A program made the translations under genes and the position numbers. The notes below the pieces were generated by a model, which saw nothing but the letters and a program-made list of their open reading frames with translations, searched no databases and was not told the DNA's origin. A stretch of 64,000 nucleotides of DNA from Infirmifilum lucidum (GTDB lineage: Archaea; Thermoproteota; Thermoprotei; Thermofilales; Thermofilaceae): the NCBI RefSeq assembly GCF_014876775.1, contig NZ_CP062310.1, positions 744,001 through 808,000 on the forward strand, read 5' to 3'. Positions 1,999-35,834 of this stretch are shown here, piece by piece (the stretch's first letter is position 1; each line of letters begins with the position of its first letter).

Positions 1999-2095
1999 AT
2001 ACGGCTCAATTCCCTAGTAGGCTGAGAATAAAAAGCGGCAAAGGCGGGAGTAGTCCCGTAGGCCTCAATAAATAGTATGGGAGAGTAATTGTGTG
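1999..2095. promoter_or_regulatory. Divergent promoter region between the two secretion operons
   Basis: About 95 bases separate the leftward ATPase operon from the rightward membrane operon. On the plus strand AATAAATAG at about 2066-2075 lies 25-30 bases before the ATG at 2096. On the minus strand TTTTTATTC at about 2036-2028 lies about 30 bases before the ATG at 1998. Both spacings fit leaderless or short-leader archaeal transcripts. The shared control region suggests joint regulation. Confidence 0.5.
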
Positions 2096-3369: not shown

Positions 3370-3373
3370 GAAG

Positions 3374-5725
3374 ATGCTTGAGTGGGCCATTGGGGCCTCA
3401 CTGACCCTGATAGCATTCCTCTACAAGTGGTTCACCCTGCATAGGAAAGAGGCTCTGAGACTGCTCTCACGCGAGCTGGCTGAGACTCTCTTCCTAGCAT
3501 CTCTCATCCTGGTACTCCAGGGAACATACAGTGTACAAGGAGCGGGACTACATGAGACAACGGCCAGACTGCTGGAGGACAGCCTGGGGGTATTGAGAGA
3601 GTTACTCGACATGATTATCAAGCTCTCGAAGGCCATAGCTGTACTGGACATAACACTGGGAATTGTTTTCGCTGGCGCTGGGGGTGGCGAGGCACTAGCC
3701 ATACTCTCAAGTTACCAGACACTTTTCCACGCGAGCCTCGGGCCGCTCGAGGCACTAGCAGGCTTCGTTGGCACTGGAATCGTAGTAGCCAGAGCCCTTC
3801 TAGTAATTGTCAGGGAGTCGCGAGCTCTGTCCATGCTCGTCCCCATACTAGCGCCGCTACTACTGGTGCCAAGGCTCCGCAAGCTCGCCCTGCCTCTCTG
3901 GCTCTTTTCCCTCGCACTCGGCATCGCCCTACCCATAGCAGTTCAGAGCTACACTACAGATCTACACGTGATGAACATCAATGTCCCGGACATCCAGGGC
4001 ATGGGACTCGTCAAGCTTCGCGTAGTAGAGGCTTCCGGGACACCTATTTTCAAGCCGGACGTGCTTGTGGCTTTCCGTGATAGTGAAGGCAGCTTGTACG
4101 TGGCGCGTGTACGCGAAGGCTCGACTCTAGCACTACCCGTCGGGAATTACACCGCAGCCTGGGTCGTCCACTACTGGACGAACTTCACAATACCCGCCTG
4201 TTGCCTGTCCCCGAGCAACTACTCGAGTTGCAATTGCTACGTCTGGCCTGCCAGGCTTGAAGTCTCGAGCAACTCTACCCTGGAGGTCTTGGTCTGGCTC
4301 CCGGTGGATCTCATAGATCAGGGCGTAGGGCATTCCGGTCATGTCATAGCTTACGCCGGCGACACACCCCTGCACCCGGTAAAGGGAGAGGGTTACGTCT
4401 CCTACTCGTTTTCGCACAACAAGCTCAGGCGCGGTGTTACGGTTGCGGTTAGAGGGGGCGAGTATAGCCTCTCAAACCCCGGGAAGTGTTCTCTAAATGT
4501 TACCATTGACTACGTAAGGCCCCCAGGCAAGACTGTAAACTTCCAGTGGCTTAGCGAGGCGCGCAGATCTTATACCGAGTGGCTAAACCGCGTTATTAGG
4601 GGGGTTACTCTCCAACAGCTCATCCCCCTCCACTTGAGCCCTCTCCATGCACCAGGCTACAGAGAGTACTCGATTCACCTGAGGCTCATTGAATGTAACG
4701 CGACGGGTGAGGAAGAGGTTAGCCTGACGATACGGGGGCACGGCGAGTGGAACGCGAGCACGGCCCCTGCTTTCATTGAGCGCTGGCAGCCCGTGACCGC
4801 TCTTACGTCACTGTTGATAGGTAAGACCCTTGAGTACGTGAACCCAATTACCCAGCTTATGGGAGCAATCTTAGCGCTATTTTTTACGAGTGCCGCCCTC
4901 CTGGGCTTATCCGGTGTGAACATCCCGCTCATAAAGGGTTTTATAAAGTCTCTCCTTCCAAGGCCTAGAACTGCTCTGAAGATCCCACTCTTCAATACAC
5001 TCTACACCACCGTGGGAAAGAAGATTATTGCTAGGAGCCACCCACTCTCTGTGACGGGCCTGGAAGGGCCTCCTTGGCCCATTTCGAAGATCCAGCAGCC
5101 ACTTGAGCAGGTAAAGGAGGCCAAAAAGAGGAGGCCCGGCATTGCCCATACCCTGCTCTCAAGGGGATTAAGGGCATTTGAGGGGCCTCTAAGAGTTAAG
5201 CTGAAAAACGAGGCCCTAGAGGCGCCCCACAGGCTACACAAGGCAATTTACACGCTACTTGGCTACAAAAGCTTCGAGGGACGGCAACTCTGGTTCTATG
5301 CCGTTGACGGCTTTCTGGAGGCACACATGAAGTGGATCTACGAGAGGTTGCTTAGCGAGTACAAGGAGTTAGCAATTAACGACCTTAGAGACCACGGGAC
5401 AAAGCCAGATGTCACTTCTAGGTATAGTGATTTGATACTGAAAGCGCGTTCTCTAGAAGAGGTCGACACGTTACTCTTTGAGGCCATGCTCTTCGATTTC
5501 CCATGTGAGTCGGCCATACTCAAGAAGTACAAAATATACCAGGGCTCTCTCTTGGAGCCTGTCTGGAAGAGAGTGCTTCTGAACTACAGGCTAGTCGTGC
5601 TCGAGAAGCTTGCGAGGGAGTGTAGCGCGCCGGACGAGTGCCGGGAAATCTCCTTGGCACACAAGCTCTACCGCAAGCCGTGGAGGGTCGTGAATATTGA
5701 GAAGAAGATGAGGGAGGGGATATGA
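3374..5725 (+). CDS. Large membrane protein: CedA-like helices, external domain, cytoplasmic tail
   Basis: This 783-residue protein has three parts. Residues 1-195 contain several membrane helices and end with the PILAPLLLVPRLRK turn resembling the preceding protein. Residues about 196-490 form a soluble, probably extracytoplasmic domain with many N-x-S/T sequons and a Cys cluster (CCLSPSNYSSCNCY). A further helix near residues 495-520 is followed by about 260 charged residues, probably cytoplasmic. It begins four bases after the upstream stop and overlaps the next gene by ATGA. I recognise no named family for the whole protein. It may be a VirB6-like channel component that has gained an external domain. 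Confidence 0.8.
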   Translation: MLEWAIGASLTLIAFLYKWFTLHRKEALRLLSRELAETLFLASLILVLQGTYSVQGAGLHETTARLLEDSLGVLRELLDMIIKLSKAIAVLDITLGIVFAGAGGGEALAILSSYQTLFHASLGPLEALAGFVGTGIVVARALLVIVRESRALSMLVPILAPLLLVPRLRKLALPLWLFSLALGIALPIAVQSYTTDLHVMNINVPDIQGMGLVKLRVVEASGTPIFKPDVLVAFRDSEGSLYVARVREGSTLALPVGNYTAAWVVHYWTNFTIPACCLSPSNYSSCNCYVWPARLEVSSNSTLEVLVWLPVDLIDQGVGHSGHVIAYAGDTPLHPVKGEGYVSYSFSHNKLRRGVTVAVRGGEYSLSNPGKCSLNVTIDYVRPPGKTVNFQWLSEARRSYTEWLNRVIRGVTLQQLIPLHLSPLHAPGYREYSIHLRLIECNATGEEEVSLTIRGHGEWNASTAPAFIERWQPVTALTSLLIGKTLEYVNPITQLMGAILALFFTSAALLGLSGVNIPLIKGFIKSLLPRPRTALKIPLFNTLYTTVGKKIIARSHPLSVTGLEGPPWPISKIQQPLEQVKEAKKRRPGIAHTLLSRGLRAFEGPLRVKLKNEALEAPHRLHKAIYTLLGYKSFEGRQLWFYAVDGFLEAHMKWIYERLLSEYKELAINDLRDHGTKPDVTSRYSDLILKARSLEEVDTLLFEAMLFDFPCESAILKKYKIYQGSLLEPVWKRVLLNYRLVVLEKLARECSAPDECREISLAHKLYRKPWRVVNIEKKMREGI

Positions 5726-6792
5726 ACAGGCAGACACTCTCCATTCTCCTATTCCTGGCAGGGTTATTGCTCAACGGCTATAGTACGCTGCTGACGCACG
5801 CCCTTTTCACGGCCTCCCTGATTGTGTCAGCTCAGGATCTCTACAAGTGGGTAGTTTACCTGTTTTATGGGGGGTGCCCCTTGAGCCCCCTGAAGTGCCT
5901 GGAGAACGCATGTTACTCCGATGAGCAGGCGAGGCGTTGTGGCTATCTGGGCTTCGAAGTACTTGACTGCAGACACGGCTGCTACGATCTCGACGAGAGG
6001 GAGTATTGGGCTCGATCCCTGACCCTGATGAGCGTGGCCTTCACCTCGGGCGGCGAGTACATATTCGTCGTGAAACAGGGTAAGATGTTCATCATTGCCA
6101 AGAGGTGCGCCTCTAGCCATGGCGATGTTGTCAGCGAGCTCCTAAGAGCTCGTGAAGTACTGGAGAGAGGCCTTGAACTCGCAGGCTGCAGCGCGAGGAG
6201 GCTGAAAGCCGTCGAGGTAAAAAACATCCTTAGGCCAGACTTCTTGAAGACGGCGAAAGTGAACATGCTACGCGTCTTCGGCACTGTAGCCTTAACGGCG
6301 GCGCTGGCCACGCGCTTCCCGCCGCTGTACGTGCTCCTCGGCCTAGAACTCGTTGCTCTCTCAGACCTCAGGAGCGAGATCTATACCGTGAGCCAGGAGG
6401 GGAGAGAAAGAGTTTATGGTCTAAACGAGTCAACGGTGACCTTCACTTATCCGAGCCTTCGCGACGTGTTTACGAGAGCTCGCACCAACTACCTCATAGC
6501 CCAGTCGCTTAGCTACCTCGCGGTTAAACTCGAGCCTGCACCCTGGGACGTGGCAAGCGGGCTGGATGCTCAAGCCTATCGTAGCTACGAGTTCGGCACG
6601 GCTTTAGACAAATTAAGCATCATTCACAAAAGCCAGAAGTACTTCCTCGCGAGCAGGAGGAAGTGGGAGAGACGCGAGCCCGTATTCCTGGCCACGGGCC
6701 TCTTAATGGCTACCCCGGAGACTGCCCACGTGTACGAGAGAATGGGGTTACGTTTCAAACCCGATATCTTCGCCTTAAAAACTCTCGAATAA
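5722..6792 (+). CDS. Membrane-anchored protein before the HerA-like ATPase (possible CedB N-terminal half)
   Basis: This 356-residue protein starts with two adjacent hydrophobic helices (about residues 5-50), then a short Cys-rich segment (CPLSPLKC, CYSDEQARRC, CRHGC). Another hydrophobic pair lies near residues 187-215, followed by a soluble C-terminal third. The ATG overlaps the upstream TGA. It lies immediately before the HerA/VirB4-like ATPase. In Sulfolobus CedB, as I recall it, a membrane region and the HerA-like domain are in one polypeptide, so this gene and the next could be the two halves as separate proteins, or this could be a VirB3-like partner. No frameshift is evident, since each frame has clean ends. 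Confidence 0.7.
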   Translation: MNRQTLSILLFLAGLLLNGYSTLLTHALFTASLIVSAQDLYKWVVYLFYGGCPLSPLKCLENACYSDEQARRCGYLGFEVLDCRHGCYDLDEREYWARSLTLMSVAFTSGGEYIFVVKQGKMFIIAKRCASSHGDVVSELLRAREVLERGLELAGCSARRLKAVEVKNILRPDFLKTAKVNMLRVFGTVALTAALATRFPPLYVLLGLELVALSDLRSEIYTVSQEGRERVYGLNESTVTFTYPSLRDVFTRARTNYLIAQSLSYLAVKLEPAPWDVASGLDAQAYRSYEFGTALDKLSIIHKSQKYFLASRRKWERREPVFLATGLLMATPETAHVYERMGLRFKPDIFALKTLE

Positions 6793-6800
6793 GTACCATT

Positions 6801-7850
6801 GTGATGATGAAAGGGGTGAAGCGGGTACTTGAGGGCCGCAGGCTACTCGTGCTCGCTGGAGATGTCATGCCCTTGGTGTCCCCCCTGTCCGTGATCGCGC
6901 CAAGCGAGGACACGAGCGGGCTTTTCCTCGGCGAGGATGACAGAGGGAGGAGGATATTCTTGAACCCCGAAAGGCTCCCAAACATGCACGGAGTCATTGT
7001 AGGCAGTACCGGTGTTGGGAAGTCCACGCTCGCTCGGCATCTAATTCTCGAAGCTCGACAGCTAGGCATAAGGAGTTGGGTCATAGACCCACACGGTGAA
7101 GAGGCCTACGCACGCCTATTCCATAAGACTGTCGTGTTCACTAAAGACAAGGTGGACGTCCTCCACGCACCTGGATGGGACGCCCTAGAGTACGCAAGCG
7201 AGTTAGGGCGGTACGTTGAAAGGATCTACGGCTTCAGAGGGGCCAGGAACATGATCCGTAACGTCATAGCCAGCTGTATCCGCCACGGGGGCTTAGAGCC
7301 CCTCAGGGAGCTCTCAGACCTGGATCCTGACATAAAAAGATTATACGATGACTTAACAAGCATACATGGAGAGGGAGAGAAAATAGAGGAGCTGGCTAGA
7401 CGGAACGCTTACTTTACACTCCCACTGATGACTTCGAGGGAGCTTGCGGCCCTCGCCATACAGGTATTACTCCTTCTGCTACAGGGCTTTATGAGGAGCC
7501 AGGGGGCTAGACATAGGCTCGAGCTCCTCATTATACTGGAGGAGGCCCATGTACTCTCTCCCTACCTTCTCTCCCTCTTCAAGGAGGTAAGGAAGTGGGG
7601 CTATAGCATCGTCGCTGTAAGCCAGCTACCGCGGGAGTTCGACCCGAGGATCTTCCAGCTTGCGGGCTTTGTCTTAGCCCTCTCAGGCCCTGAGAGCTAC
7701 GTGAGGGATATTGAAGCTATCTTCTTCGTAACTGGCGACGAGCGCGACCACATCCTTTACTCGCCGAGAGGTACCGCATTATTCTTCCGCCAGGGGGATC
7801 CCAGGCCCAGGAAGATTTTCCTCAAGTTACGGGCTGAGGCATTCTCCTAG
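6801..7850 (+). CDS. HerA/VirB4-like ATPase (CedB-like)
   Basis: This P-loop ATPase of about 349 residues has Walker A GSTGVGKST, a following DPHGEE (HerA-type), Walker B LLIILEEAH and a sensor-like SQLPREFD. It matches the HerA-FtsK superfamily that pumps DNA or assembles type IV secretion machines. The start is uncertain: GTG at 6801 and ATGs at 6804 and 6807 are consecutive in-frame candidates, only 8-14 bases after the previous stop. Earlier in-frame starts lie inside the upstream gene. It has no NurA neighbour, which argues against a repair HerA and for a transfer or secretion role. Its 3' end overlaps a convergent gene by 29 bases. Confidence 0.85.
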   Translation: MMMKGVKRVLEGRRLLVLAGDVMPLVSPLSVIAPSEDTSGLFLGEDDRGRRIFLNPERLPNMHGVIVGSTGVGKSTLARHLILEARQLGIRSWVIDPHGEEAYARLFHKTVVFTKDKVDVLHAPGWDALEYASELGRYVERIYGFRGARNMIRNVIASCIRHGGLEPLRELSDLDPDIKRLYDDLTSIHGEGEKIEELARRNAYFTLPLMTSRELAALAIQVLLLLLQGFMRSQGARHRLELLIILEEAHVLSPYLLSLFKEVRKWGYSIVAVSQLPREFDPRIFQLAGFVLALSGPESYVRDIEAIFFVTGDERDHILYSPRGTALFFRQGDPRPRKIFLKLRAEAFS

Positions 7851-18973: not shown

Positions 18974-20815
18974 TTACTCCTCTATAACCGGTATACCGAA
19001 TTTCTTGGAGGCCAGTACGTGTTGCTCGTAGGGTATGGAGTCGATATCAATTATGCCCCGGTAGTGTCTCCTGTAGGGCTCTCCCGAGATTAGTTTCCTA
19101 ATGTTCCTCTTGTACGCGGTATCCTTGAGAGACTTCCCACTTATCCTCTCCCAGTCACTTACAGAGTACGAGAAAGCCTTCTGCGCCCGGTCGCGATAGA
19201 GGTCTGAGATGACGTTAAAGGAGCAGAAGGGCACTTGTCTCCCGTCTGGCATTACGTAGTGTATGTCGCATCTCATGACTCTTGCAACATCGTGGTTGTA
19301 GAGGTCTTGGAAGTGCATCAGCCCTAAGAACAAGGTGTTATAGTGGAACTCTCCGAGGCTCTCGTAGTCATGTTTGACGAAAACATTGTAGAGTATCTTG
19401 AGTATCCTGTTGCCTTCTCTTAACCGTTTAGGAGCTTTTTCGAGATCCACGAACTTCCTCAGCTTCCATACTACTTCGAGCATTACAATGTATTTGTTCC
19501 TACCCCTCTCGAGTTCGTCTGCCTTTTTATCGAGGAATGCCAGGAACTCGTCGACGTTTACAAACCTAGTTATCGGTATTATCTCGCCGTCGTCCTGCCA
19601 CACGTAGGTAGCGGCTCCACAGGCAAAGTGCGTCGTAAACGCTATCTGAGGCTTACCTGTAACCGCTTCAACAAAACGGGAAATGGGGGCGACGCTTGGA
19701 ACAGGGTACCAATCCTCGACTCTTATTTGACCATTTGTTTGTTCCTCTATAGCCTTTAGAACATCAGGGATAGTTACGCGCTCCTTTTCGCGCTCCTTCC
19801 TGGGCATGCGCCCAGTAATGGATACCGGCTGGAAGTTTACGCCCCTAACTATGTCGTTGTGCTTTAACCCGAACTGGATTATTTTACCAACTTCACTTAA
19901 ATTGTAGCTCTTTATAACTGTTGGGACAAGTACTGCTCCGAGGCCCGCCTTCCTGAGATTGTCTAGAGCGTAGGGAACCTCCCAGTGATTCTTTGGGTTT
20001 GTGAGTGGCGACACTCCGTCAAAGCTCAGGTACACGACGTTTGTACCGGCTTTCCTCACCTTCTCCGCGAGGCTAGGGTCGAAGGCCAGCCGTATCCCAT
20101 TAGTGTTTAATTGGATGTGTGTAAAGCCCTCCTCCCTAGCCATCTTTATAATCTCTACTAGGTCGTCGCGCAACGTAGGCTCTCCTCCTGTTAGCTGGAT
20201 AGCGGGGGGCTTGACCGGCTCAGATAACCTAGCCTGCCTGAGCATGTACCTGATGTGTTCCAGAGACGGCTCGTAGACGTAACCGGCACGCGAGGCATAG
20301 AAGAAGCAATAGAAGCAACTTAAGTCGCACCTGTTCGTAAGAACGAGGTTTATTAAAGCGGCGTTAGATTTGTGCCTAGGGCACACTCCACAATTGTATG
20401 GGCATAGGGCAGTGAGCGGAACATGTGTTACAGTGTTGCCTTTCCCGTCTCTCTGAAAACTCCTGAACTTCTCGTATACTCTGGCGTCTCCAAAGTAAAG
20501 CTCTTCGAACTCGCCGTGTTCAGGGCAGACCTTCCGTATCCAGACTTTTCCGTCCCTCTTGAATATTACAGCTGTCAGAAGAGAATAGCACTCGGGACAC
20601 GCCGACTGAGTGTAGGTGATGAGTTCTTCTCCGTCGCGTAGCTGTGGCCTTTTTCCAAGGTAGACCCTGTAGTCCACGCCAGGCTTTGGCATGAGAAGCG
20701 GCCGTAGTTTCTCAGCAACCTCCTTAATCTCTGAGAAACTTGCACTTGAAAGAAGCTTGTAGTCAACACGCGGCTCCCCTAGTCTTTGAGAAAGCTCTAC
20801 CTTAAGATCTGTCAT
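18974..20815 (-). CDS. Radical SAM enzyme, COG1964 type (tetraether lipid synthase Tes/MJ0619-like)
   Basis: This 613-residue protein has an N-terminal zinc-type set (CPEC at 73-76, CPEH at 97-100), a second cluster motif CPYNCGVCPRHK (138-149) and the radical SAM CDLSCFYC (163-170). It then has LTGGEPTLRDDL, NTNGIR and YLSFDG as in SPASM-type radical SAM folds. This order is that of the family containing the tetraether synthase Tes, which couples lipid chains to make membrane-spanning tetraethers, and MJ0619, a pterin methylase relative. Tes is favoured because hyperthermophilic Thermoproteota make tetraethers and the CPYNCG-CPRHK cluster is kept, but the two cannot be told apart here with certainty. 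Confidence 0.75.
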   Translation of the reverse strand: MTDLKVELSQRLGEPRVDYKLLSSASFSEIKEVAEKLRPLLMPKPGVDYRVYLGKRPQLRDGEELITYTQSACPECYSLLTAVIFKRDGKVWIRKVCPEHGEFEELYFGDARVYEKFRSFQRDGKGNTVTHVPLTALCPYNCGVCPRHKSNAALINLVLTNRCDLSCFYCFFYASRAGYVYEPSLEHIRYMLRQARLSEPVKPPAIQLTGGEPTLRDDLVEIIKMAREEGFTHIQLNTNGIRLAFDPSLAEKVRKAGTNVVYLSFDGVSPLTNPKNHWEVPYALDNLRKAGLGAVLVPTVIKSYNLSEVGKIIQFGLKHNDIVRGVNFQPVSITGRMPRKEREKERVTIPDVLKAIEEQTNGQIRVEDWYPVPSVAPISRFVEAVTGKPQIAFTTHFACGAATYVWQDDGEIIPITRFVNVDEFLAFLDKKADELERGRNKYIVMLEVVWKLRKFVDLEKAPKRLREGNRILKILYNVFVKHDYESLGEFHYNTLFLGLMHFQDLYNHDVARVMRCDIHYVMPDGRQVPFCSFNVISDLYRDRAQKAFSYSVSDWERISGKSLKDTAYKRNIRKLISGEPYRRHYRGIIDIDSIPYEQHVLASKKFGIPVIEE

Positions 20816-23272: not shown

Positions 23273-23452
23273 ATGGCCTACGTCCCGAGGACGCTCCTCC
23301 TAGGCAGGTGCGTGAGGTGTGGGAAGAAGATATACAAGGGCGACGAGTATTACCTATGTGAAAAATGCGGTGTCTCTTACTGTCCAACGTGCGCAAGGAA
23401 GACGTTCGGCAAATGCCAGATATGCGGTCAACCACTTGTGAAGAAACCTTGA
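23273..23452 (+). CDS. Small treble-clef/zinc-binding protein
   Basis: This 59-residue frame has four CxxC motifs (CVRC, CEKC, CPTC, CQIC) plus basic residues. The spacing gives two interleaved zinc sites, like small FYVE/LIM-type or double zinc-ribbon folds. It follows the DUF1512-like pair in the same direction after 38 bases and ends 25 bases inside the 3' end of the convergent PAPS-reductase-like gene. The regular cysteine spacing makes it very likely real despite its size. Confidence 0.78.
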   Translation: MAYVPRTLLLGRCVRCGKKIYKGDEYYLCEKCGVSYCPTCARKTFGKCQICGQPLVKKP

Positions 23453-25269
23453 AACTTTAATGTGTACTCTGCTATAGGGCACTTCTGCTGGCATGTGCCA
23501 CAACGTATACACCTACCTTCGTCTATAACAATACCTCCCTCACTGCCCAAGCTTATGGCCCCTGTGGGACACCAATTGGCGCATTCAAGGCACCCTACAC
23601 AGTAAAAAGCGCGTATCACGGCTCGCACAACCTCCTTTTCAACTTCAGGAGACACGCCTCTAGTCTCAAGAACTAGTTGTCCTTCCTCGACTCTTATTCC
23701 CTCAATGTGAGCGTCTGCCTTCTTCGATGTAAGGAGTATGTTTCTGAGCCTTGTAGACTCAGGTTTCATCATGGTTTTTTCGAGCTCGAACACCAGCTTG
23801 TTACCCTCATAGTGCCACGTTACACGGGCGCCCCTTACGGGGTTTAAAACGTCTTGCTCCTTGAGGTCAATAGTGTTTAGAATATCTTTAGGTGGGCGCA
23901 CCCACCTCCACAGCCCATAGCGCACCCAGGACTCGCTGACAGAGTTCTCCCTAGCATACTCGAACAAGTATTCGCTCCACTTCGAGTATAGCGACCCGTG
24001 AACCGCTTTGGCTAGCTCGAACTCGCCCATCTCCGTGGCGGGGCATAGCCAGCACCCAAGCCGGTCTAGGCCGAGATAGTAGAGGGGATTCGGCAGTAGC
24101 CTCTCCCTGAAGATGTAGAGCCACACATCGAGGGCAGACCAGTCCTGTATTGGCGTGGCTGCTACAACGTTCGGCAACCAGGCATTTCTCCATACTCGCG
24201 GGGAAAGTGCCCGCTGAGCAGACTCGTACCTCCTCTGGCCTACAAGACTCAATGCACCGCCTGGGAATAACCTCCTCAGTACACGGGCGATTGGCGCGAA
24301 TTTCGTAACCTTACAGCACCACCTGAGGTCTCGTGCAGGCGGCCCCATGACAGAGACGCCGCGCCAGAACGCGTCGCCCGCGTCTGCCACTATTAGCTCT
24401 ACACCCATACGTTCGCAGACCCTGTACACGTATTCCACGGTCTCCGGGAACTCAAGTCCAGTGTTGTTAAACAGGACTTTCACCCTCTCTGGGCCTAGTG
24501 CCTTCAAGGCGAGGTAGAGCGTTACAAGGCTGTCCTTACCGCCCGAGAACGAGACAACTACAGGTAGCTTGTACTTCTCATAGACCTCTCTTATAAAAGA
24601 CGTTGCCTCGCGCTCTTTCTCACTCAGATACCTGTCGTGAAGCCTTACGATATCCCACCAGCTCGGGTCGCCCTCGAGCAAGCTATAGGGCTTCCGGAGC
24701 CAGCTCTTCAAGACATAGATCCTACCGTTCCTTAGGACGACCCCGACGCCGAGATAACTCATATTCCGCGATGCGACTGCTACGTACTCGTCCTCTCTCG
24801 GCAGTACAAACTTTTCGAGGTGACTTTGCTTTACCACGTACCCCCTGGCCAGTTTGTCGAGCCTTGTCTTCGCGTAAAAGCCCACCTCGCTCTCGACCAT
24901 TCTTAGGACTGTTCCGTAGAGTGGGCGGAACCGCCATGCCCTCCCTCTTATATCGTATATGAAGTGCCCTACTACCTGGGCATCCGTTACGAGCTCGACC
25001 GCGAAGTCTGGGTACATTACCTTGTTTGCTAACATAGCCTTCCTCCTGGGAATTACTTCTTCTGCCCGGCTCCCGGCCTTGGTGAAGTAACTATCTATGG
25101 TGTCCCACACAAGCCTATAGAGGCGGCCCACTGCGGGGTAGGCGTCTCCAGGCGGCGTCAAGCGAAGCCTGGCTGTAAGCCCGTCGCGACTATACGCTAG
25201 AGGGGCATTAAGCCTAAGATCCCAGTACACCCTTGCAGAGACTTTCTTCAGGATCGATGCGCTCTCCAT
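23428..25269 (-). CDS. PAPS-reductase-like adenine nucleotide hydrolase fused to ferredoxin
   Basis: This 613-residue protein has an N-terminal region, a PUA-like segment (about residues 155-220), an ATP-pyrophosphatase domain with the PP-motif SFSGGKDS, CCKVTKF and a CWLCP motif, and a C-terminal 2x[4Fe-4S] ferredoxin (CVGCLECANWCP and CIRCGTCQQKCP). Proteins of this layout are annotated as phosphoadenosine phosphosulfate reductases but probably thiolate RNA or use sulfur otherwise. ATG 25269 is preferred because GGGGAG lies just upstream; an earlier in-frame ATG adds 69 residues of poor sequence. The N-terminal W-C-x-x-C-N-x-P-L zinc motif I recall for relatives reads WDLRLNAPL here, so its cysteines are lost. 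Confidence 0.8.
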   Translation of the reverse strand: MESASILKKVSARVYWDLRLNAPLAYSRDGLTARLRLTPPGDAYPAVGRLYRLVWDTIDSYFTKAGSRAEEVIPRRKAMLANKVMYPDFAVELVTDAQVVGHFIYDIRGRAWRFRPLYGTVLRMVESEVGFYAKTRLDKLARGYVVKQSHLEKFVLPREDEYVAVASRNMSYLGVGVVLRNGRIYVLKSWLRKPYSLLEGDPSWWDIVRLHDRYLSEKEREATSFIREVYEKYKLPVVVSFSGGKDSLVTLYLALKALGPERVKVLFNNTGLEFPETVEYVYRVCERMGVELIVADAGDAFWRGVSVMGPPARDLRWCCKVTKFAPIARVLRRLFPGGALSLVGQRRYESAQRALSPRVWRNAWLPNVVAATPIQDWSALDVWLYIFRERLLPNPLYYLGLDRLGCWLCPATEMGEFELAKAVHGSLYSKWSEYLFEYARENSVSESWVRYGLWRWVRPPKDILNTIDLKEQDVLNPVRGARVTWHYEGNKLVFELEKTMMKPESTRLRNILLTSKKADAHIEGIRVEEGQLVLETRGVSPEVEKEVVRAVIRAFYCVGCLECANWCPTGAISLGSEGGIVIDEGRCIRCGTCQQKCPIAEYTLKFQGFFTSG

Positions 25270-25441
25270 GAGCTCCCCACAGCCTCGCTTACTGTGATTC
25301 TGAACCCGTATTTCTATCCTTTCACTAGGCCTCTCCCCGGCCTCCGCCACTAGACCTTCTTCCCGGACTGGGCACGCTTGAAGGCGGGAGACGAAACAGC
25401 AAACAATAGCTTTATGACTGGGCCTGTAATCTCGTTGTAGT

Positions 25442-25564
25442 ATGAGTGTAATACTACTCGTGGCTTTGCTCATCATTGCCGGACTTAGCCGTATTGTAAC
25501 AAGTAGACGCTTTGTAAATAGAAGGAGGAGAGTAAGACTTTACGGCCCCCGCGTAATAATTTAA
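25442..25564 (+). CDS. Possible 40-residue single-pass membrane protein
   Basis: ATG to TAA encodes one membrane helix (MSVILLVALLIIAGLSRIV) followed by a strongly basic tail (RRFVNRRRRVRLYG). This inside-positive layout is typical of small membrane proteins. It lies 86 bases before top6B and is divergent from the PAPS-like gene. Short length makes it uncertain, and it overlaps the weaker upstream start of that gene. Confidence 0.4.
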   Translation: MSVILLVALLIIAGLSRIVTSRRFVNRRRRVRLYGPRVII

Positions 25565-28658: not shown

Positions 28659-28799
28659 TTAACCGCTTAAAAATATTAGAGAGCCATTGTTGGATATGCA
28701 TACAGTCTTTACAGAAAGATGTACATGAGTCGGGTTCATCGCTGCCAACAAGAGCAACGCCGCGAGCAATATTATTATTGCGTAGAGCGCCTTAGACAT
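28659..28799 (-). CDS. 46-residue single-pass membrane protein after TadC-like gene
   Basis: The frame starts at an ATG overlapping the last codons of the TadC-like gene and encodes a strongly hydrophobic N-terminal helix (YAIIILLAALLLLAA), then a short external tail with one cysteine. The overlap and topology suggest it belongs to the leftward TadC/pilin operon, perhaps as a minor pilin-like or accessory subunit. Small size keeps confidence moderate. Confidence 0.5.
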   Translation of the reverse strand: MSKALYAIIILLAALLLLAAMNPTHVHLSVKTVCISNNGSLIFLSG

Positions 28800-29892
28800 G
28801 CACACCACCGAGCAGGCTGTTGCCTAAAAGCCCCCCCACCAGGACAACGAGTGAAGCAACGGGGAGCCATAGTGCGGTGAAAGCAGCAGAGCCTGTTGAT
28901 AGAACGCTTAGTCCAGAAGAGTAGATTACTACTGCTCCAGCGAGATAGAGGTCTACCAGGAGGTTGATTGCACGGGGGTCGCTAATTGTAATCCACTGGT
29001 TAATGCTTTCCAGAGGTATACTGGCGTAGATGCCCTTGATGACGGAGGAGGCGAAGCCGAGGAGAAAGAGTGTTACCAAGTTCATCGTAGCATTAGTGAA
29101 CCCCTTCCTCATCAGCTTCCTGTGGAAATTGTAAAGCTTTTCGTACGTTAACAGCAGAAGACTCGGATCCTCGATCCCCCATATCGAAGAGAGGTATACT
29201 GTCAGGCGCAGGCTCCTGCTTAGCCCGAGCATGGTATCTGAGAGGAGGGATTCAGGGGAAACAGCGCGGAAGATGTGTCCTGGTGATTGGAGCGCCTTGA
29301 CCAGGATTTCTTTATTCTCATTTAGTTCGGCTTCAACACTCCTAATTTTCCTAACCGTGAGAAGTGACAAGGGAAAGCTGACAACAGTCTGGAATATCAG
29401 AGAGTATTCAAGGCCTGCATGCATGAGTAAGGCTGACGAAAGCGCGAATATGACTAATAGTGCGAGAAACAACTTGTAGCCTGCCGAGGACACCAGCACC
29501 TTTGGGTGCAGATCCCTATACAAGAACACGAGGATAGTATTCAGGAGTAGCAACAACGGTAGGGCCTTCTCCAGCACGTAAGGCTGAAGTAAGCCGACAG
29601 AGTAGAGCATCACTGGGGCAACGAGGAGCGTTATGTTGAAGACTTCGCTTAGCGTGTCCACGCGAGCCGAGAACGCATCGAGCCTGTACTCGAATCCTCT
29701 CACAGCCTCTTCGAGCGCTGTCCTGATGCCGGCCCTTGACCCAGCCCTCTCGTCCTCCGAGATTATTCTTTTCAAGTTGTCGCCTATCCTGTACTCTATC
29801 CCCCGGTTCGCGAGCCACGTCAGAACATAGCTCGGCGGGGCGTCCGTGAAGGAGAGGAGAAAAAGAACTTCTAATTCCCCCAGGGTAGACAT
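28792..29892 (-). CDS. TadC/GspF-like polytopic membrane protein
   Basis: This 366-residue protein has an N-terminal cytoplasmic region of about 80 residues. It then has two helix clusters (about 85-170 and 265-360) separated by a cytoplasmic domain with SVEAELNENKEILVKALQSP and SLLSDTMLGLSRSLRLT. That repeated helix/cytoplasmic/helix arrangement is the platform protein of type IV pili, Tad and archaella (GspF/TadC/FlaJ). It lies just downstream of a pilin-like gene. No assembly ATPase is adjacent; a TadA-like ATPase does lie at the left edge of the window. Assignment is by topology and context. Confidence 0.65.
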   Translation of the reverse strand: MSTLGELEVLFLLSFTDAPPSYVLTWLANRGIEYRIGDNLKRIISEDERAGSRAGIRTALEEAVRGFEYRLDAFSARVDTLSEVFNITLLVAPVMLYSVGLLQPYVLEKALPLLLLLNTILVFLYRDLHPKVLVSSAGYKLFLALLVIFALSSALLMHAGLEYSLIFQTVVSFPLSLLTVRKIRSVEAELNENKEILVKALQSPGHIFRAVSPESLLSDTMLGLSRSLRLTVYLSSIWGIEDPSLLLLTYEKLYNFHRKLMRKGFTNATMNLVTLFLLGFASSVIKGIYASIPLESINQWITISDPRAINLLVDLYLAGAVVIYSSGLSVLSTGSAAFTALWLPVASLVVLVGGLLGNSLLGGVHV

Positions 29893-29896
29893 CTAG

Positions 29897-30304
29897 CTAT
29901 CCTCGTATTATTGAAACCTTGTAAATACCGTACTTTGTCACGATATACCCGGTCACAGCACTTGTAATCTGTAGAGTCGAGGGGAGCGTTGCCGTGCATG
30001 TGCTTGTGGCTCCTGAAGAGAGAGTGCTCGGGTTGCACAGGAGCCTTGTAGTAATGCCGTAGTTGGTGATCGTGAGGTTCGCGTTCAACAGGTCTGCGGA
30101 AGACGTTCCTATGTTTTGTAGCCAAACTGTGACAGTATAGCCTCCGGCGGCTGGCGTCAGTATCGCGTCGCCTGCCTGCACGATTACCGGGCGGCTGGTG
30201 GTGGCCGAGGCTACTGTGTATATGAAGTAGCCTATTACAGAGACTACTGCTAGAGTTATTATGACCATGATGCTCCTCCCGACCTCCTCGCTCGTTGTTC
30301 CCAC
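29897..30304 (-). CDS. Archaeal pilin/archaellin-like secreted protein
   Basis: This 135-residue protein begins with a short polar leader (MGTTSEEVGRS) followed by a hydrophobic helix (IMVIITLAVVSVIGYFIYT) and a threonine/serine-rich beta-type domain with two cysteines. The leader and helix resemble type IV pilins processed by PibD/FlaK-type peptidases, and the body resembles FlaG/FlaF-like or pilin domains. The start is GTG; a TTTTAAAC box about 25 bases upstream fits a leaderless transcript. It precedes the TadC-like gene by 4 bases, as expected for a subunit and its assembly platform. Confidence 0.65.
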   Translation of the reverse strand: MGTTSEEVGRSIMVIITLAVVSVIGYFIYTVASATTSRPVIVQAGDAILTPAAGGYTVTVWLQNIGTSSADLLNANLTITNYGITTRLLCNPSTLSSGATSTCTATLPSTLQITSAVTGYIVTKYGIYKVSIIRG

Positions 30305-30393
30305 CCAAGGAACTAGTACATGCAGTTTAAAAGGCGGGTATCTCGAGGCATCTCCCGGAAATCGGTTAATATGTCTTGGTCGGAATTGAGGTG

Positions 30394-31758
30394 ATGTCTA
30401 GGAATGCATCCAAAGGCATAAAGAAAGCCCTGTTTCTCATCTTAGCCCTGCTAATACCGATAATGCTCCTAGCATCGCTGCACCAGCCTTCCCTAACCAC
30501 CGATAAACCGCGAGCCGAGAAAATAGATATGGCGCATCGATCCAGAGAGGAAGTATACTTCCTTGTCATCTATGCTGACGTACCAAATGCATCGGCTCTT
30601 ATAAACAGGACTCTTTACGTCCTCCCTGTAAGCATAGCAGTGAAGAGTAACTCTAGGGTCGTCATTGAGCCTCAGCCAGCTGGGCCATATGAGCCGTCGA
30701 ATGGTACCGTTGTATTAACAGTCTTAGGCAACACTACGGTGAGGCTGGCGTACAGGAGGGCCTACGCCGTCGTCGAGGTGGAGGCTGTCGCGCCGGTCAT
30801 CGTGAACGGCTCGCCGGTTAAGGGCACCGTGACGCTGAAAGCCAGGCTGAACTCCACCCTGTCCTTCAACTCCACCCTAGTAGACCTGGGCAACGGGACT
30901 GCCCTGCGCGGCGTTGCAGTGAGGGTCGAGCGTGGCAGCGTGGTGGAGGAGTTCCCCCTCAACGTGACAGTCGTGGTGCAGGGTGACTCGAGGGTAACGA
31001 TAAAGGCCAGAAGGCTCTACCTCCTGCGCTTCACCGTGCCCCTGAACGTAACCGTGGCCGTCAACGGCACTGCCCGTAGAGGCGAGTTTGCCCTGTGGTG
31101 GCCGTCCGGCGCGGTCGTGGAGCTGTCCGGGGGCTGCGTGGAGTACAACGACACACACAACGCCTGCGTAGCGGGCTGGTTCGGCACTGGCCTCAGGCCG
31201 GACTTCGAGGGCAACGCGCCCTCTATAGCCTTCAGGGTCGCCGGGCCCGGCAACTACACTGCCAGGGTCGTCTTCGCGAAGAAGAAGTTTCCCGTTGTAA
31301 CGGGGATGGCGTACTATGGCGGGAGGCTCGTGGAGGTGAAGGTGTACCCGGCGAGGAGCATTGCCCCAAACTGGAGGGCCGCGATGGCCGGAACGTACGA
31401 GTACGTGGGCGACGGATGGTGGCACGTCGTGCCAACGGGGGCCTTCGTAGCAGTGGACATAAAGCCGCCAGAAGTCAACTGGTCCCGGGTAATCGTCTAC
31501 ATAAGGGCGACGAAGGGCTGGTCCGACCACTACATCGAGCTTAACCTCGAGGACAGGGCCGAGGGCTGGTGGTTCAAAGAAGGAGAGTTCGTATTCGAGT
31601 TCGTGAGGGGCAAGGGGAGGGGGCAAGTGCTCAAGTCCCCCGGCCCCTACACGTGCGACGTGTGGACCCACCTCGCTCCAGTGGCAGAGCTGGGCTGGAT
31701 ATCCATGGACGTATTTGGGGGTGGTGAGGTGTGGCTGAAGCTAGAGTACTACCCGTAG
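30394..31758 (+). CDS. Large secreted/surface protein A
   Basis: This 454-residue protein has an N-terminal signal-anchor helix (KALFLILALLIPIMLLAS) and then a beta-rich body with more than ten N-x-S/T sequons, suggesting a glycosylated exterior protein. ATG 30394 is preceded by GAGGTG, which fits a ribosome binding site; a longer reading begins 18 bases earlier. From about 30,740 the coding DNA becomes markedly GC-rich (one 60-base line at 31021 is 65% GC, against 47% at 30421), while the frame stays open. I recognise no domain. It overlaps the next gene by 28 bases. Confidence 0.75.
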   Translation: MSRNASKGIKKALFLILALLIPIMLLASLHQPSLTTDKPRAEKIDMAHRSREEVYFLVIYADVPNASALINRTLYVLPVSIAVKSNSRVVIEPQPAGPYEPSNGTVVLTVLGNTTVRLAYRRAYAVVEVEAVAPVIVNGSPVKGTVTLKARLNSTLSFNSTLVDLGNGTALRGVAVRVERGSVVEEFPLNVTVVVQGDSRVTIKARRLYLLRFTVPLNVTVAVNGTARRGEFALWWPSGAVVELSGGCVEYNDTHNACVAGWFGTGLRPDFEGNAPSIAFRVAGPGNYTARVVFAKKKFPVVTGMAYYGGRLVEVKVYPARSIAPNWRAAMAGTYEYVGDGWWHVVPTGAFVAVDIKPPEVNWSRVIVYIRATKGWSDHYIELNLEDRAEGWWFKEGEFVFEFVRGKGRGQVLKSPGPYTCDVWTHLAPVAELGWISMDVFGGGEVWLKLEYYP

Positions 31759-33887
31759 CCATGCTACTGGCAGTACTCCTACTCACAACTGTCGCCCCAG
31801 CACACAAGCCGGCGGACAGGCACGCAGAACCTCTCTCCACGACCTACGCGGACATGAGGGAGGCACGCGCCTGGGATCAGAAAACAAACACTCGCAACAC
31901 ACCCACGAGCACTAAGCTCGAGGGCTCCGACTCCAAGTCCTATAGCCTCTGCATAGTTGGCGTGTGGGAGCTGACGGCTGGGTGGACGGCGGTCGCACAG
32001 CCTGCTGGCGGGGAAGCCACTCTGCTCGGCGGCACAGGACACAGGGGGTTGTTGCTCGGTTCCGCGTACTCGAAGAACGTGGATGTTAATGCGGTAGTCG
32101 GCTACTGGCCGTACAGCCCCATCGAGTTTGCAGGCGGCGCTCTGCAGTCCCCGGCGGCCACTACAGTAGACCTCGCCGTCTCCTTCAGCGTCAACGCCAC
32201 ACTACGAGGGGGCACGACCGTGCGGTTCGAGGCGATCACAAGACTCGAGTACAACTCCTCAACGGCCTGCTACTCCAGCCCGCCCCCACCACCGCCCCGA
32301 CCCTCCTACATGCTCTCCGTTAAGGCGTGGGTGGCGAGCGCCACTGGCGTAAGCGGTAGCCTGCAGGTGAGCGGAACCGTGTCGGGGACACTAGCATTCC
32401 CGCCCAACCCAACAGGCCCGCTACAGAAAAGCCTGCAGTCCGGCTCGGGCTACAGCGTGACAGCGCCTCAGAGCTTCCCCGTTAAGCTCGACTGGAGCGC
32501 GCTTGCAGTGAGCTGTAGCTGGGGCTACACGCAGGGCGACGGATGGGTCTCGAGGACGTGCACGAGCCAGCAGATCTATACCGGCACGTACAACTTGACA
32601 GTGGAGTACTCCTTCACCGGGGGGACGAGGTTCTACTTCGAAGTAGACGCGGTCGGCCCCCGGGGCACACGCACGCTGTACTTCAGCCAAGTGCCGTCCT
32701 GGGGGACTATAACACTCAGGAACATCGCCCTCAACGGCGAGAAGGTGAGCGTGACGGCGTACGCAAACGTCTACTTCGACAGAGTGAACTACGTGAGGGC
32801 CACGCTCTCGAACTCGACGCCCGTTACGGCATACTTCCAGTACTGGCAGGCGCCCTGGGGCAGGGTGTACAGCACGACTGTCACAGGCACGCTTAGCTCG
32901 AACACGGAGCTTGTGGCCGTGTACTTATTGAGTAATCGCGTCCAGGAACCTCTACTCCTGCCTGGCATGGACTTTCAGCCGTCCAATGGGACGCATTTTA
33001 TCCCGATTGCACCAGGAATCTATGCCGTTGAGACTAATGCCACGGTGATCCTCCTGGATTTGAACAGAACCAGGCTTCACGCAGTTAGAGGTATCAAGGC
33101 CACGATGAGAGTATATTCGCCTTACGGCGAACTCGCAAAGGTTGGGTCGAGGTGTAGAGAAGTTAGGGGGGCTTCGCAGAGCCTCCCGGTGGTCGTATTG
33201 GATAATAAAGAATACTACCTGTTCTCGCTAGTGGCCCCTGATCAAGCAAATGTAACAGTGTATCTGAAACTCAACGACACGACGCTCTTTTACAGGGTCA
33301 TAAGCCCGAGAGTGGAAGTTAGGAGGATTGAGTATACAGAAGACGGGGCCAGGATCATCTTTTATGCGTGGCCTTTGTGGGATAATTACAACGTGTCTGT
33401 TGTCTTAGGGGGGAGGCTACTGTCCTCGTCCAAGGCTAGTAGCGGGATTCTAGAAGTCAAATATGAGAAGCTCCAGGACGTTATGTATCCTGTAGAGGTC
33501 GAGCTTAGAGCATCGTGGGGTGGCCAGTTAAGGGCTCTCGGGAAAACAATAAAGCTATTGGTAGTCCCCGTAGCTCTCAGGCTCGACTTCCATGCTGGAG
33601 AAAGATCTATAATTCTCTCAGCTTCGGAGCCGCTTGTACTCGGCGAAAACGCCTCACTGTGGCAGAAACTAGCCATGCTTAACGAGACATATACCCCGGG
33701 TTGGCTCTGCTTGAGAGTAGCCAGCAATGGCTTAGCCTTGTGGAAGGCTTGTTCAACCTACCCTTACCACTTAGAGATACCCTACTGTAGTGCTGGAGTT
33801 TGCACGCTCGAGGCAATTTACGTGCCTACAGCCACGCAAGGGGTGATAGTAATACCATGGATCGAGAAGCTATCGGTGAGCTCTTGA
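31731..33887 (+). CDS. Large secreted/surface protein B
   Basis: This 718-residue protein has a signal peptide (VAMLLAVLLLTTVAPAHK), a proline run (PPPPPP) near residue 185, and long threonine/serine-rich beta segments with many sequons. The first 1.2 kb continue the GC-rich block begun in the previous gene. From about 32,930 the composition returns to the local level (a line at 33001 is 52% GC). The last third also looks beta-rich, without a clear C-terminal membrane anchor. Start is a GTG inside the previous gene's end. No family recognised; an adhesin or S-layer-associated protein is possible. Confidence 0.75.
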   Translation: MAEARVLPVAMLLAVLLLTTVAPAHKPADRHAEPLSTTYADMREARAWDQKTNTRNTPTSTKLEGSDSKSYSLCIVGVWELTAGWTAVAQPAGGEATLLGGTGHRGLLLGSAYSKNVDVNAVVGYWPYSPIEFAGGALQSPAATTVDLAVSFSVNATLRGGTTVRFEAITRLEYNSSTACYSSPPPPPPRPSYMLSVKAWVASATGVSGSLQVSGTVSGTLAFPPNPTGPLQKSLQSGSGYSVTAPQSFPVKLDWSALAVSCSWGYTQGDGWVSRTCTSQQIYTGTYNLTVEYSFTGGTRFYFEVDAVGPRGTRTLYFSQVPSWGTITLRNIALNGEKVSVTAYANVYFDRVNYVRATLSNSTPVTAYFQYWQAPWGRVYSTTVTGTLSSNTELVAVYLLSNRVQEPLLLPGMDFQPSNGTHFIPIAPGIYAVETNATVILLDLNRTRLHAVRGIKATMRVYSPYGELAKVGSRCREVRGASQSLPVVVLDNKEYYLFSLVAPDQANVTVYLKLNDTTLFYRVISPRVEVRRIEYTEDGARIIFYAWPLWDNYNVSVVLGGRLLSSSKASSGILEVKYEKLQDVMYPVEVELRASWGGQLRALGKTIKLLVVPVALRLDFHAGERSIILSASEPLVLGENASLWQKLAMLNETYTPGWLCLRVASNGLALWKACSTYPYHLEIPYCSAGVCTLEAIYVPTATQGVIVIPWIEKLSVSS

Positions 33888-34390
33888 AAGAAGCTTTGTT
33901 AACACTTATTGCCGTAGCAGTGCTAGCAACAACTCTACTGCTAGTACAAGGAGCGCGACCAAGCCTGCTGCTAGACCGCCACGGCGCGAAAACACTGCCT
34001 CAATCAGATTTCGTCGACCTCAACTATAGAATTTATTTAAACGGTACTGCTTGCCCCTTCGAGATTAACGGGCTCCCGGTGTCGAAAATAAGGGAGCCTG
34101 TCCTTACGGTTCCTAACTGCGCCACGACCCCCTTAAACTCCACGTGGGTGAAGCTTCTCAGGAGAGCTGGCGACTGCGTGCTTTTCCTAGACCCGGTCTT
34201 TGTCCCCCAGAACTCGACGCTAATACTGTTTGACACAGTAGACACGGGTTGGACCGACAGGATCTGCTACTTTAGGACGATCGAGGAGTTTAAGGTCTAC
34301 AGTCCAAGTGTAAGGGTATGCGCTTCACGCTATAACCTCAGCGGCGCCATTATACTCAGAATCGTCCACATGAGGGTGAGCAGGTGTTGA
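33857..34390 (+). CDS. Single-pass, Cys-rich pseudopilin-like protein 1
   Basis: This 177-residue protein has a short charged start (MDREAIGELLKEA), one hydrophobic helix (LLTLIAVAVLATTLLLVQG) and an external domain with about six cysteines (ACPFE, NCATT, DCVLF, ICYFR, VCASR, RC), probably disulfide-linked. The ATG lies 30 bases inside the end of the large surface gene and GGGTGATAG precedes it. It is the first of five short genes with overlapping ends. The leader-plus-helix form resembles pseudopilins but no diagnostic cleavage site is certain. Confidence 0.7.
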   Translation: MDREAIGELLKEALLTLIAVAVLATTLLLVQGARPSLLLDRHGAKTLPQSDFVDLNYRIYLNGTACPFEINGLPVSKIREPVLTVPNCATTPLNSTWVKLLRRAGDCVLFLDPVFVPQNSTLILFDTVDTGWTDRICYFRTIEEFKVYSPSVRVCASRYNLSGAIILRIVHMRVSRC

Positions 34391-34632
34391 AGGGTCTCGA
34401 AGAGTCTATTATGACGATATTCGAGGTAGTTTTACTCGTAGGCGTTCTCGCATTTGCGCAGAAACTCTCCAGCATGAATGTGGACGATGTCTCGTACATA
34501 CAAGACCTGCTACCTCCGGGCGCCTGCGTGGAGGTATACTCTTCGAGGCCGCTGAGCTTCAACGGGACAATCCACGGGACGGCGCTGGTAGTGTGCCGTA
34601 ACAGCTCGGGCGTCGTGGTGATGCCTCCATGA
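34384..34632 (+). CDS. Single-pass small protein 2 of the surface operon
   Basis: This 82-residue protein has a GTG start 7 bases inside the previous gene, a charged leader (KGLEES), a hydrophobic helix (IMTIFEVVLLVGVLAFAQ) and a short external part with two cysteines. The glutamate inside the helix near its start resembles the Glu5 of type IV pilins, though this may be chance. It overlaps the following ATG (ATGA). Confidence 0.65.
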   Translation: MLKGLEESIMTIFEVVLLVGVLAFAQKLSSMNVDDVSYIQDLLPPGACVEVYSSRPLSFNGTIHGTALVVCRNSSGVVVMPP

Positions 34633-34907
34633 GAGAGATCACCGCGGCGGTCATTGCGCTAATCGTGCTTTTGACGCTGGCTAGGGTGTCTTCGCACAGG
34701 ATCTACCCCCTCTCGCTTCAGATTAAGAACGAGAGAAACGTTGCCACAGTCGCTGCATATGTGATGATTAATGTAAACTGTACAGACGTCAGAACTTACT
34801 TGAGAGAGGTGAACGCTACAGACCCCCTTCCGGACTCCGCGACTGGATACGTTGCTGTGTGGTGCGGTGAAGAGCTAAGAGTCTACGCATTCTCATGGAG
34901 GGGGTGA
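34629..34907 (+). CDS. Single-pass small protein 3 of the surface operon
   Basis: This 92-residue protein starts with MREITAAVIALIVLLTLARV, a hydrophobic helix with an early glutamate, then a beta-type external domain with two cysteines and two sequons. It overlaps both neighbours, so translation is coupled. No family recognised; role inferred only from operon and topology. Confidence 0.65.
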   Translation: MREITAAVIALIVLLTLARVSSHRIYPLSLQIKNERNVATVAAYVMINVNCTDVRTYLREVNATDPLPDSATGYVAVWCGEELRVYAFSWRG

Positions 34908-35479
34908 GCGTGCACAGGCGCGCCGCTGCTTCGTTGGTGGCAGTTATCGTCTTGAGCATACTTGTTCTCAACTTTGTCCAGCACACGCACCGCGCACGCT
35001 ACATTGGCGAGGACGTACACGCCCTTATGCTAATCACCGTGCGTGAGGCGTGCAAATCTCCGGAGAAGGCACCTACTCTGTTTGCCCGCGTCCAGGGGCT
35101 TTTAAGGTACGTGGCAGTTAAATCCCTCAGTATTTCAGTGCCAGAGAATCGCTCCGAGTACTCTAAGGGATCACTGGTCTGTATTGGACGTGTCGTCACC
35201 AACCTTGGCGAAGACGTCTTCGCCCTAAACTACACGTACAGCCTAACTGGCTTCTTTGTTGAGCCATTAACTGGGAGGATATTCAGGCTATATCGCGTGG
35301 AGGGCTACCAATTCTTTAAGATTCCCCCCTACAACTACACCATTAGACTGCGCGTAGGGCTTACTCCAATCTGCCCCCACGATCACGTCAATAATAGCAG
35401 TATACTTGCGATAAGGGGCACAGACCCATGCGTCCTCTCCGACAAGTGGGGTATAAAGCTGGTGATCCCTGGTGGATGA
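34895..35479 (+). CDS. Single-pass small protein 4 of the surface operon
   Basis: This 194-residue protein has a basic leader (RRAAAS), one membrane helix (LVAVIVLSILVLNFVQH) and a long external domain with four cysteines and several sequons. ATG 34895 overlaps the previous gene by 13 bases; in-frame GTGs at 34904 and 34910 are alternatives and would make the leader shorter. It overlaps the next gene by 8 bases. No family recognised. Confidence 0.65.
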   Translation: MEGVSVHRRAAASLVAVIVLSILVLNFVQHTHRARYIGEDVHALMLITVREACKSPEKAPTLFARVQGLLRYVAVKSLSISVPENRSEYSKGSLVCIGRVVTNLGEDVFALNYTYSLTGFFVEPLTGRIFRLYRVEGYQFFKIPPYNYTIRLRVGLTPICPHDHVNNSSILAIRGTDPCVLSDKWGIKLVIPGG

Positions 35480-35834
35480 GGCGGTACTATCTCTCCTCAA
35501 CCTCCTTGTCTCGAGCCTCCTCCTAGCATACTGGCTCACCGTGTACAATTACCAGAGCCCACAGAACAGTGAGCTCGTACGCGATATCTGCTACCTCATG
35601 GCTTCTCCGAACGGAACAAGCATAAGTGGCGACTATCACCTCAACGTATGCATAGTGAATGGCACACTGGCCTCGAGGACTCCAATAGACAAGATGTGCC
35701 TGGTGAGAGTGAACACCACGGCAGTTACGGGATTCCTGTACGCAGAGGATGGGGATAAGTGTTTCGAGGGGAAAGTTCGCTTGAGGCTTACGAAAGTCGG
35801 CGGAAAAGTCGCCGTTGGCTTTGACCGTAGTTAA
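35472..35834 (+). CDS. Single-pass small protein 5, last of the surface operon
   Basis: This 120-residue protein has an N-terminal helix (VLSLLNLLVSSLLLAYWLTV) with an early glutamate, and an external domain with four cysteines (DICYL, NVCIV, KMCLV, DKCFE) and sequons. Start is a GTG overlapping the previous gene. It ends 34 bases before the TGS GTPase gene, so the operon probably ends here. Confidence 0.65.
   Translation: MDEAVLSLLNLLVSSLLLAYWLTVYNYQSPQNSELVRDICYLMASPNGTSISGDYHLNVCIVNGTLASRTPIDKMCLVRVNTTAVTGFLYAEDGDKCFEGKVRLRLTKVGGKVAVGFDRS

Follow-up and report, generated by a model that had tools for sequence, protein, structure and literature searches.

Genetic linkage of a divergent type IV pilus with a Ted-like operon in Infirmifilum lucidum: a candidate contact pilus for DNA exchange

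Which motor drives a pilin locus that encodes no assembly ATPase, and what does such a pilus do? The question is raised by positions 28659-35834 of a 64,000-nt window of Infirmifilum lucidum NZ_CP062310.1 (genome 744,001-808,000; a single contig of 1.63 Mb), whose numbering is used throughout. The sequence evidence supports well the reading of this pilin block as part of a divergent archaeal type IV pilus (T4P), and equally well the genetic coupling of this T4P to a Ted-like operon across the order Thermofilales. We propose, with a probability of about two in three, that the pilus is split in two halves and gives species-specific cell contact for DNA exchange by the Ted-like machine.

In Sulfolobales, cells that exchange DNA need both Ups pili, which bring them into contact, and Ced, which transfers the DNA. 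Without the ups operon, neither import nor export of DNA takes place (PMC11868833), and the species specificity of Ups is decided by pilin regions (PMC7064770). Ted was described in Thermoproteales as TedA, TedB and TedC with ParA and HerA genes nearby (PMC9905601), and CedD and VirB4 have been noted in Thermofilales (PMC11868833). No paper joining Thermofilum T4P loci with Ted was found in the open literature searched.

The pilin block

The block holds ten open reading frames (ORFs) in two divergent, tightly packed strings flanking an 89-bp gap, and in most cases neighboring plus-strand ORFs overlap by a few bases. All ten lie where the original prediction had placed them, with a pilin, a TadC-like platform and a 46-amino-acid (aa) membrane protein facing two large and five small proteins (TM, transmembrane):

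28659-28799, minus strand: 46-aa single-pass membrane protein after TadC (ORF 28659-28808, 46 aa counted from the second ATG; kept in 4/4 congeners)
28792-29892, minus strand: TadC/UpsF-like platform, 366 aa, multi-TM (NCBIfam UpsF match)
29897-30304, minus strand: major type IV pilin, 135 aa, one TM helix (class III-like signal, R-S ahead of the hydrophobic helix; pilin profile matches)
30305-30393, no strand: divergent promoter region (TATA-like TTTAAAA near 30326-30332)
30394-31758, plus strand: g460, first large secreted sequon-rich protein, 460 aa (sequon excess; relatives in many loci beyond the genus)
31731-33887, plus strand: g718, second large secreted sequon-rich protein, 718 aa, candidate adhesin (sequon excess)
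33857-34390, plus strand: s1, minor pilin-like (conserved position)
34384-34632, plus strand: s2, minor pilin-like (conserved position; relatives in loci of other genera)
34629-34907, plus strand: s3, minor pilin-like (kept within the genus)
34910-35479, plus strand: s4, minor pilin, order-wide signature gene (class III-like signal, [KR]RG before Q in relatives)
35472-35834, plus strand: s5, minor pilin-like (counterpart immediately upstream of TedC-TedA in other genera)

Four congeners keep the block with its gene order unchanged and in one location, between topoVIB-topoVIA-asnC and a TGS GTPase (for Thermofilum sp. NZ13, genome G022, the latter was not among the matches listed), and the ten ORFs are therefore real genes. 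The two divergent operons are co-conserved in this neighborhood comparison, as their treatment as one locus had supposed; g460 was undetected in G021, which has nine block genes. In several other genera, the slot of the 46-aa protein is taken by a one-TM protein of 100-120 aa.

A Pfam search with all ten proteins gave no significant match. The pilin family profile (17 relatives), however, matched the solved archaeal pilins and flagellins 8fk7, 8q30, 6w8u, 8tib, 6nav and 6w8x at E values of 1.9e-9 to 1.8e-4 (best, 8fk7 1.9e-9, 8q30 1.7e-7 and 6w8u 1.2e-6), in line with the predicted pilus or surface machine. Relatives of the pilin carry textbook class III signals, R-[RK]-G-G-V-P-P, degenerate to R-S in this genus. 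The gene for a prepilin peptidase lies elsewhere in the genome, at 605 kb (PF01478 over cut-off).

Homology of the platform appears moderate. It matched NCBIfam UpsF at 2.4e-7; 3/17 family members match this model (2.4e-7 to 1.2e-9), far below the curated cut-off, and one member matches T2SSF at only 0.054; hhalign comparison of the family with the two canonical TadC loci of the genome gave no support for a relation. The platform family is present in 25/81 genomes of the class, its gene beside the pilin gene in nearly all loci, and as a TadC it would be strongly diverged. With 30 bits against an UpsF cut-off of 400 and a gene set other than upsXEFAB, the locus is, as predicted, no standard Ups system.

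Among the small proteins, s4 is present in 14/14 high-quality genomes of the order, and most relatives have an R-[GA]-type signal. Its structural model (two sequences; predicted local distance difference test [pLDDT], 68) has a 48-residue N-terminal helix followed by a beta sheet, as in pseudopilins. All five small proteins contain Cys (2-6 residues), as had been claimed; the charged leader attributed to each of them is best seen in s4 and s3 and poorly in s2 and s5. In line with the description of the two large proteins as glycoprotein-like, N-glycosylation sequons are enriched over shuffled sequences in g460 (15 versus a shuffled mean of 2.0, maximum 8, 300 shuffles) and in g718 (12 versus 4.5, maximum 10).

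The motor of the pilus

Within 28659-35834 there is indeed no assembly ATPase; a divergent T2SSE ATPase stands at the left edge of the window, in a module of three genes:

1-941, minus strand: divergent T2SSE/TadA-VirB11-like assembly ATPase, 387 aa, N-terminal part (PF00437 over cut-off; the gene runs about 220 bases left of the window, and the whole gene is at genome 743784-744947)
941-1290, minus strand: small cytoplasmic coiled-coil protein, start approximate (kept between ParA and the ATPase in most loci of the order)
1282-1998, minus strand: ParA/MinD-family ATPase of the pilus module (TIGR01969 and PF13614 matches)

The distance from pilin block to ATPase is about 28 kb here and 57 kb in G021. 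Since most other genera of the order have the genes for ParA, coiled coil, ATPase, pilin and platform side by side, the separation in this genus looks secondary. Such joint clusters confirm the partner role that had been suggested for the left-edge ATPase/ParA pair; the adjoining genes at 2093-7850, conjugation-type in look, had been overlooked. In G013, G004, G012 and others, the large proteins and minor pilins share a cluster with the ATPase module as well. The family-specific profile of the ATPase has matches in most genomes of the order, and by score these proteins stand apart from the canonical T4P ATPases that occur alongside them in each genome (E <1e-114 versus 1e-35 at best); in the ATPase tree, the family falls on one side of a branch with weak support.

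On a different assignment, the ATPase and ParA at the left edge would serve Ted as its VirB11 and VirC1, and the pilin block would encode a pilus of its own, driven by one of the genome's other ATPases. The curated models closest to the window ATPase are TrbB and VirB11, the genome also carries two canonical T4P ATPases, and ParA stays with Ted, without the ATPase, in G025; further families of the class also have ParA near TedA. We nonetheless consider this assignment quite improbable: members of this ATPase family are encoded next to or near pilin and TadC in G001, G004-G008, G010, G013, G017, G018, G020 and others, also where no TedA was found, and the G004 relative best matches archaellum FlaI. 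A dual role of the ATPase, as T4P motor and as VirB11, is possible. That the parts belong to one T4P is well supported by pilin and ATPase homology, moderate platform homology, co-conservation and physical unity in relatives.

The Ted-like operon

An operon at 2093-7850 starts directly divergent from the ParA gene, which in nearly all loci is found with the T4P ATPase, with TedA or with both:

2093-2590, plus strand: TedC/VirB2-like small hydrophobic protein, candidate conjugative pilin (upstream of TedA; S-[FW]-G-R-S motif)
2551-3369, plus strand: TedA/VirB6-like multi-TM protein (its profile matches a ParA-adjacent gene in a different family of the class)
3374-5725, plus strand: large multi-TM protein with an extracellular part, 783 aa, third gene of the operon (conserved gene order)
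5722-6792, plus strand: membrane protein, 356 aa (kept in the genus, same order)
6663-7850, plus strand: HerA/VirB4/CedD-like ATPase (true start probably near 6800)

The HerA-type ATPase matched NCBIfam CedD best (3.8e-9, far below cut-off), CedB at 4e-4 and the HerA central domain PF01935 at 1.4e-9, over cut-off. In hhalign comparisons with a family of the class here called f13, the TedA-like protein matched a gene near ParA at locus L163 (E 2.6e-5, 75% probability), and the TedC-like protein matched a small protein beside TedA and ParA (E 6e-4, 29% probability), S-[FW]-G-R-S being common to both.

L163 itself (contig 1 of G061, 661-665 kb) brings together a TedA-like gene, an S-W-G-R-S small hydrophobic protein, ParA and a small protein, probably as a Ted locus of the published type. 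The third gene and its relatives (L146, L148 and L172-L175) range from about 780 to 1400 aa (up to 1403) and combine several TM helices with a large exterior region; profile searches placed this gene in no known family. Two sets of candidates were set aside: a TedA match in G065 (family f14), which looks like a degenerate fragment and was left out of the counts, and CedBD-type matches beside the pilus in G005 and G006, which look generic HerA-type and adjoin 7-TM proteins that are not TedA.

Linkage of pilus and Ted-like genes across the order

Of 20 TedA loci examined in the order, 18 are beside a gene of the pilus module (two of these, in G024 and G025, beside ParA only), and the remaining pair, in G003 and at the second TedA locus of G011, are at contig ends. 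By our estimate, chance would give about 1-2% per TedA locus (random placement, roughly 20-kb target in 1.6 Mb). Pilus genes, near Ted or elsewhere, were found in 16/17 TedA-bearing genomes.

The arrangements are several. In eight loci (G008, G012, G014, G017, G018, G019, G020 and the second copy of G026), s4-s5 are followed on the same strand by the TedC-like gene, TedA and the large TM protein; G000, G021, G022, G023 and G026 have TedC-TedA pointing away from a divergent ParA-coiled coil-ATPase string; the pilus cluster of G004 is flanked on either side by Ted-type genes; and G011 and the second copy in G022 show further close arrangements. One inherited, fixed gene order does not explain all of these adjacencies, because they differ. 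The second, divergent copies of the pilus module in two congeners (L120/L146 in G026, 1.378-1.410 Mb; L121 in G022, contig 18) are again beside TedA-type genes.

Outside the order, one f13 genus (g24; L139 and L140) has a lone TedA-like gene that is transcribed divergently from a pilin gene of the family studied here; around it, no further Ted or pilus genes were recognized.

Several results count against the proposed reading, chiefly the presence of the pilus in genomes that lack a recognizable TedA and the weak homology by which Ted is identified. Foldseek with the s4 model gave no match. The TedC-like and TedA-like proteins had no PDB match and no relevant Pfam or NCBIfam match, and the TedC model (single sequence) consisted of helices only (pLDDT 59), with uninformative Foldseek results; the Ted identity of 2093-7850 is thus weakly indicated, by gene order, topology and weak profile matches. 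The Sulfolobus-type ultraviolet-response motif ANTTTC is not common to the divergent promoters. The pilus occurs without detectable TedA in eight genomes (G001, G005-G007, G010, G013, G015 and G016; several incomplete), and in G025 the pilus ATPase is not a neighbor of Ted; pilus and Ted are therefore not obligatorily coupled.

Most archaeal T4P are adhesive, and the pilus might be an ordinary one of that kind, used for surface attachment or aggregation but not for DNA transfer, with Ted next door as inherited synteny. Full pilus clusters without detectable TedA in G013 and G005-G007 would fit this explanation, as would the fast evolution described below, which is also seen in adhesins. Passive synteny does not, however, predict several distinct pilus-Ted arrangements over genera and families. 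Two genomes also have second pilus modules (G022 contig 18, G026) that again lie beside Ted-type genes, and we regard an ordinary adhesive pilus as unlikely.

Proposed mechanism

Our preferred reading, a contact pilus serving the Ted-like machine, takes the pilin block as the extracellular half of the T4P, and the ATPase, coiled coil and ParA as its cytoplasmic half, 28 kb away beside the Ted/Ced-like operon. The class III signal of the 135-aa pilin would be cleaved and the pilin then assembled by the ATPase on the TadC-like membrane platform; the five small proteins would act as minor pilins starting or capping the fiber, and g460 and g718 as envelope-spanning or tip adhesins, the fast-evolving recognition parts. 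The pilus would attach to a conspecific partner, like Ups pili in Sulfolobales or IncI thin T4P in broth mating, and the Ted-like machine (TedC pilus, TedA channel, CedD/VirB4-like ATPase) would then move DNA between the cells. We infer the role of the pilus in DNA exchange by analogy with these systems.

Within the genus, amino acid identity is 75-91% for topoVIA, 50-76% for the pilin, 36-62% for the platform and 41-61% for s4; it is lowest for g460 (32-34%), g718 (30-45%) and s1 (19-44%). The candidate adhesins would thus be evolving fastest, as expected under partner recognition.

In bacterial competence, the T4P has several minor pilins, and DNA uptake by H. pylori depends on a machine of the type IV secretion system (T4SS) type. 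By the same token, the pilus here could catch free DNA for the Ted-like channel instead of contacting cells. The large, fast-evolving, sequon-rich proteins look like surface recognition parts, and in Sulfolobales, the nearest studied relatives, DNA is exchanged between aggregated cells (PMC7064770, PMC11868833); a DNA-uptake pilus is accordingly the least probable of the explanations weighed here.

Going further than the preferred reading, the pilus and the Ted-like apparatus may form one composite conjugation machine, in which T4P adhesins recognize the partner and the ATPase doubles as VirB11. We hold this idea tentatively and think it rather improbable. If true, Ted-bearing archaea would have in this composite machine their missing Ups-equivalent, conserved as a unit across the order and present in two copies in some genomes.

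Promoter regions and other window genes

The element W4-AARRCGG (a TATA-like run, then CGG) occurs in both divergent promoter regions, at 2028-2038 (ParA/TedC) and 30327-30337 (pilin/g460), which are two of only five sites on both strands of the window; a like element is at the pilin promoter in congeners G022, G023 and G026. This post hoc observation possibly reflects a shared promoter signal. Elsewhere, the window encodes a radical SAM protein with an HMPTM zinc ribbon (18974-20815) and a PAPS-reductase-domain protein with ferredoxin domains (23428-25476).

Comparison with known systems

The order-wide coupling points to the ATPase belonging to an orphan pilin locus and supplies a concrete candidate contact pilus with pilin, platform, ATPase and adhesin genes, which makes the question directly testable. 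The locus had been called undescribed, which is only partly right. T4P loci like it in Thermoproteales were already part of a published census (PMC4858521); in the open literature searched, no paper was found that links them to Ted.

There, Thermoproteales T4P loci are reported as fast-evolving, with large secreted proteins and Cys-rich minor pilins, and a Thermofilum-specific ATPase clade is tentatively tied to such loci (PMC4858521). The window locus is plausibly among the Thermofilum T4P loci of that census. Compared by text description, its organization closely resembles that of clades 4G and 4E and the Thermofilum-specific ATPase clade, for which a diverged ATPase and TadC, a MinD/FleN-family ATPase, small helical cytoplasmic proteins, a pair of large secreted proteins and numerous small minor pilins with Cys are described (PMC4858521); linkage to DNA-transfer genes is not reported in the relevant sections. 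As a probe of clade 4G, homology to the ParA-linked T4P of family f13 (L164 and L170) was considered and rejected; in the tree the ATPase groups with other T4P, so that the window family and the f13 pilus are not joined, and the platform gave no match.

In layout, the operon resembles the published Ted (PMC9905601), with a small hydrophobic candidate pilin, a putative multi-TM channel downstream, a HerA-type, candidate VirB4-class ATPase and ParA nearby. It differs in that sequence similarity is barely detectable and the window ATPase is nearest CedD, and no partner T4P is reported for Ted, whereas here a T4P is in the same cluster.

With Ups/Ced of Sulfolobales, the proposed pair has in common a T4P cooperating with a conjugation-like DNA-transfer apparatus, and the window platform best matches UpsF. 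Ups is, however, a simple operon, upsXEFAB, outside the Ced genes, whereas the window pilus additionally includes ParA, a coiled-coil protein, the large secreted pair g460 and g718 and the minor pilins s1-s5, and is encoded next to the Ted-like operon.

IncI1/IncI2 plasmids likewise encode a thin T4P (PilS/PilV) and a T4SS together, and the T4P provides mating-pair stabilization and recipient specificity through a variable adhesin (PMC9045228). That system is bacterial and plasmid-borne, with a shufflon (PMC9045228). The T4P-Ted pair would parallel this plasmid-encoded combination of T4P and T4SS, but on a chromosome and in another domain of life.

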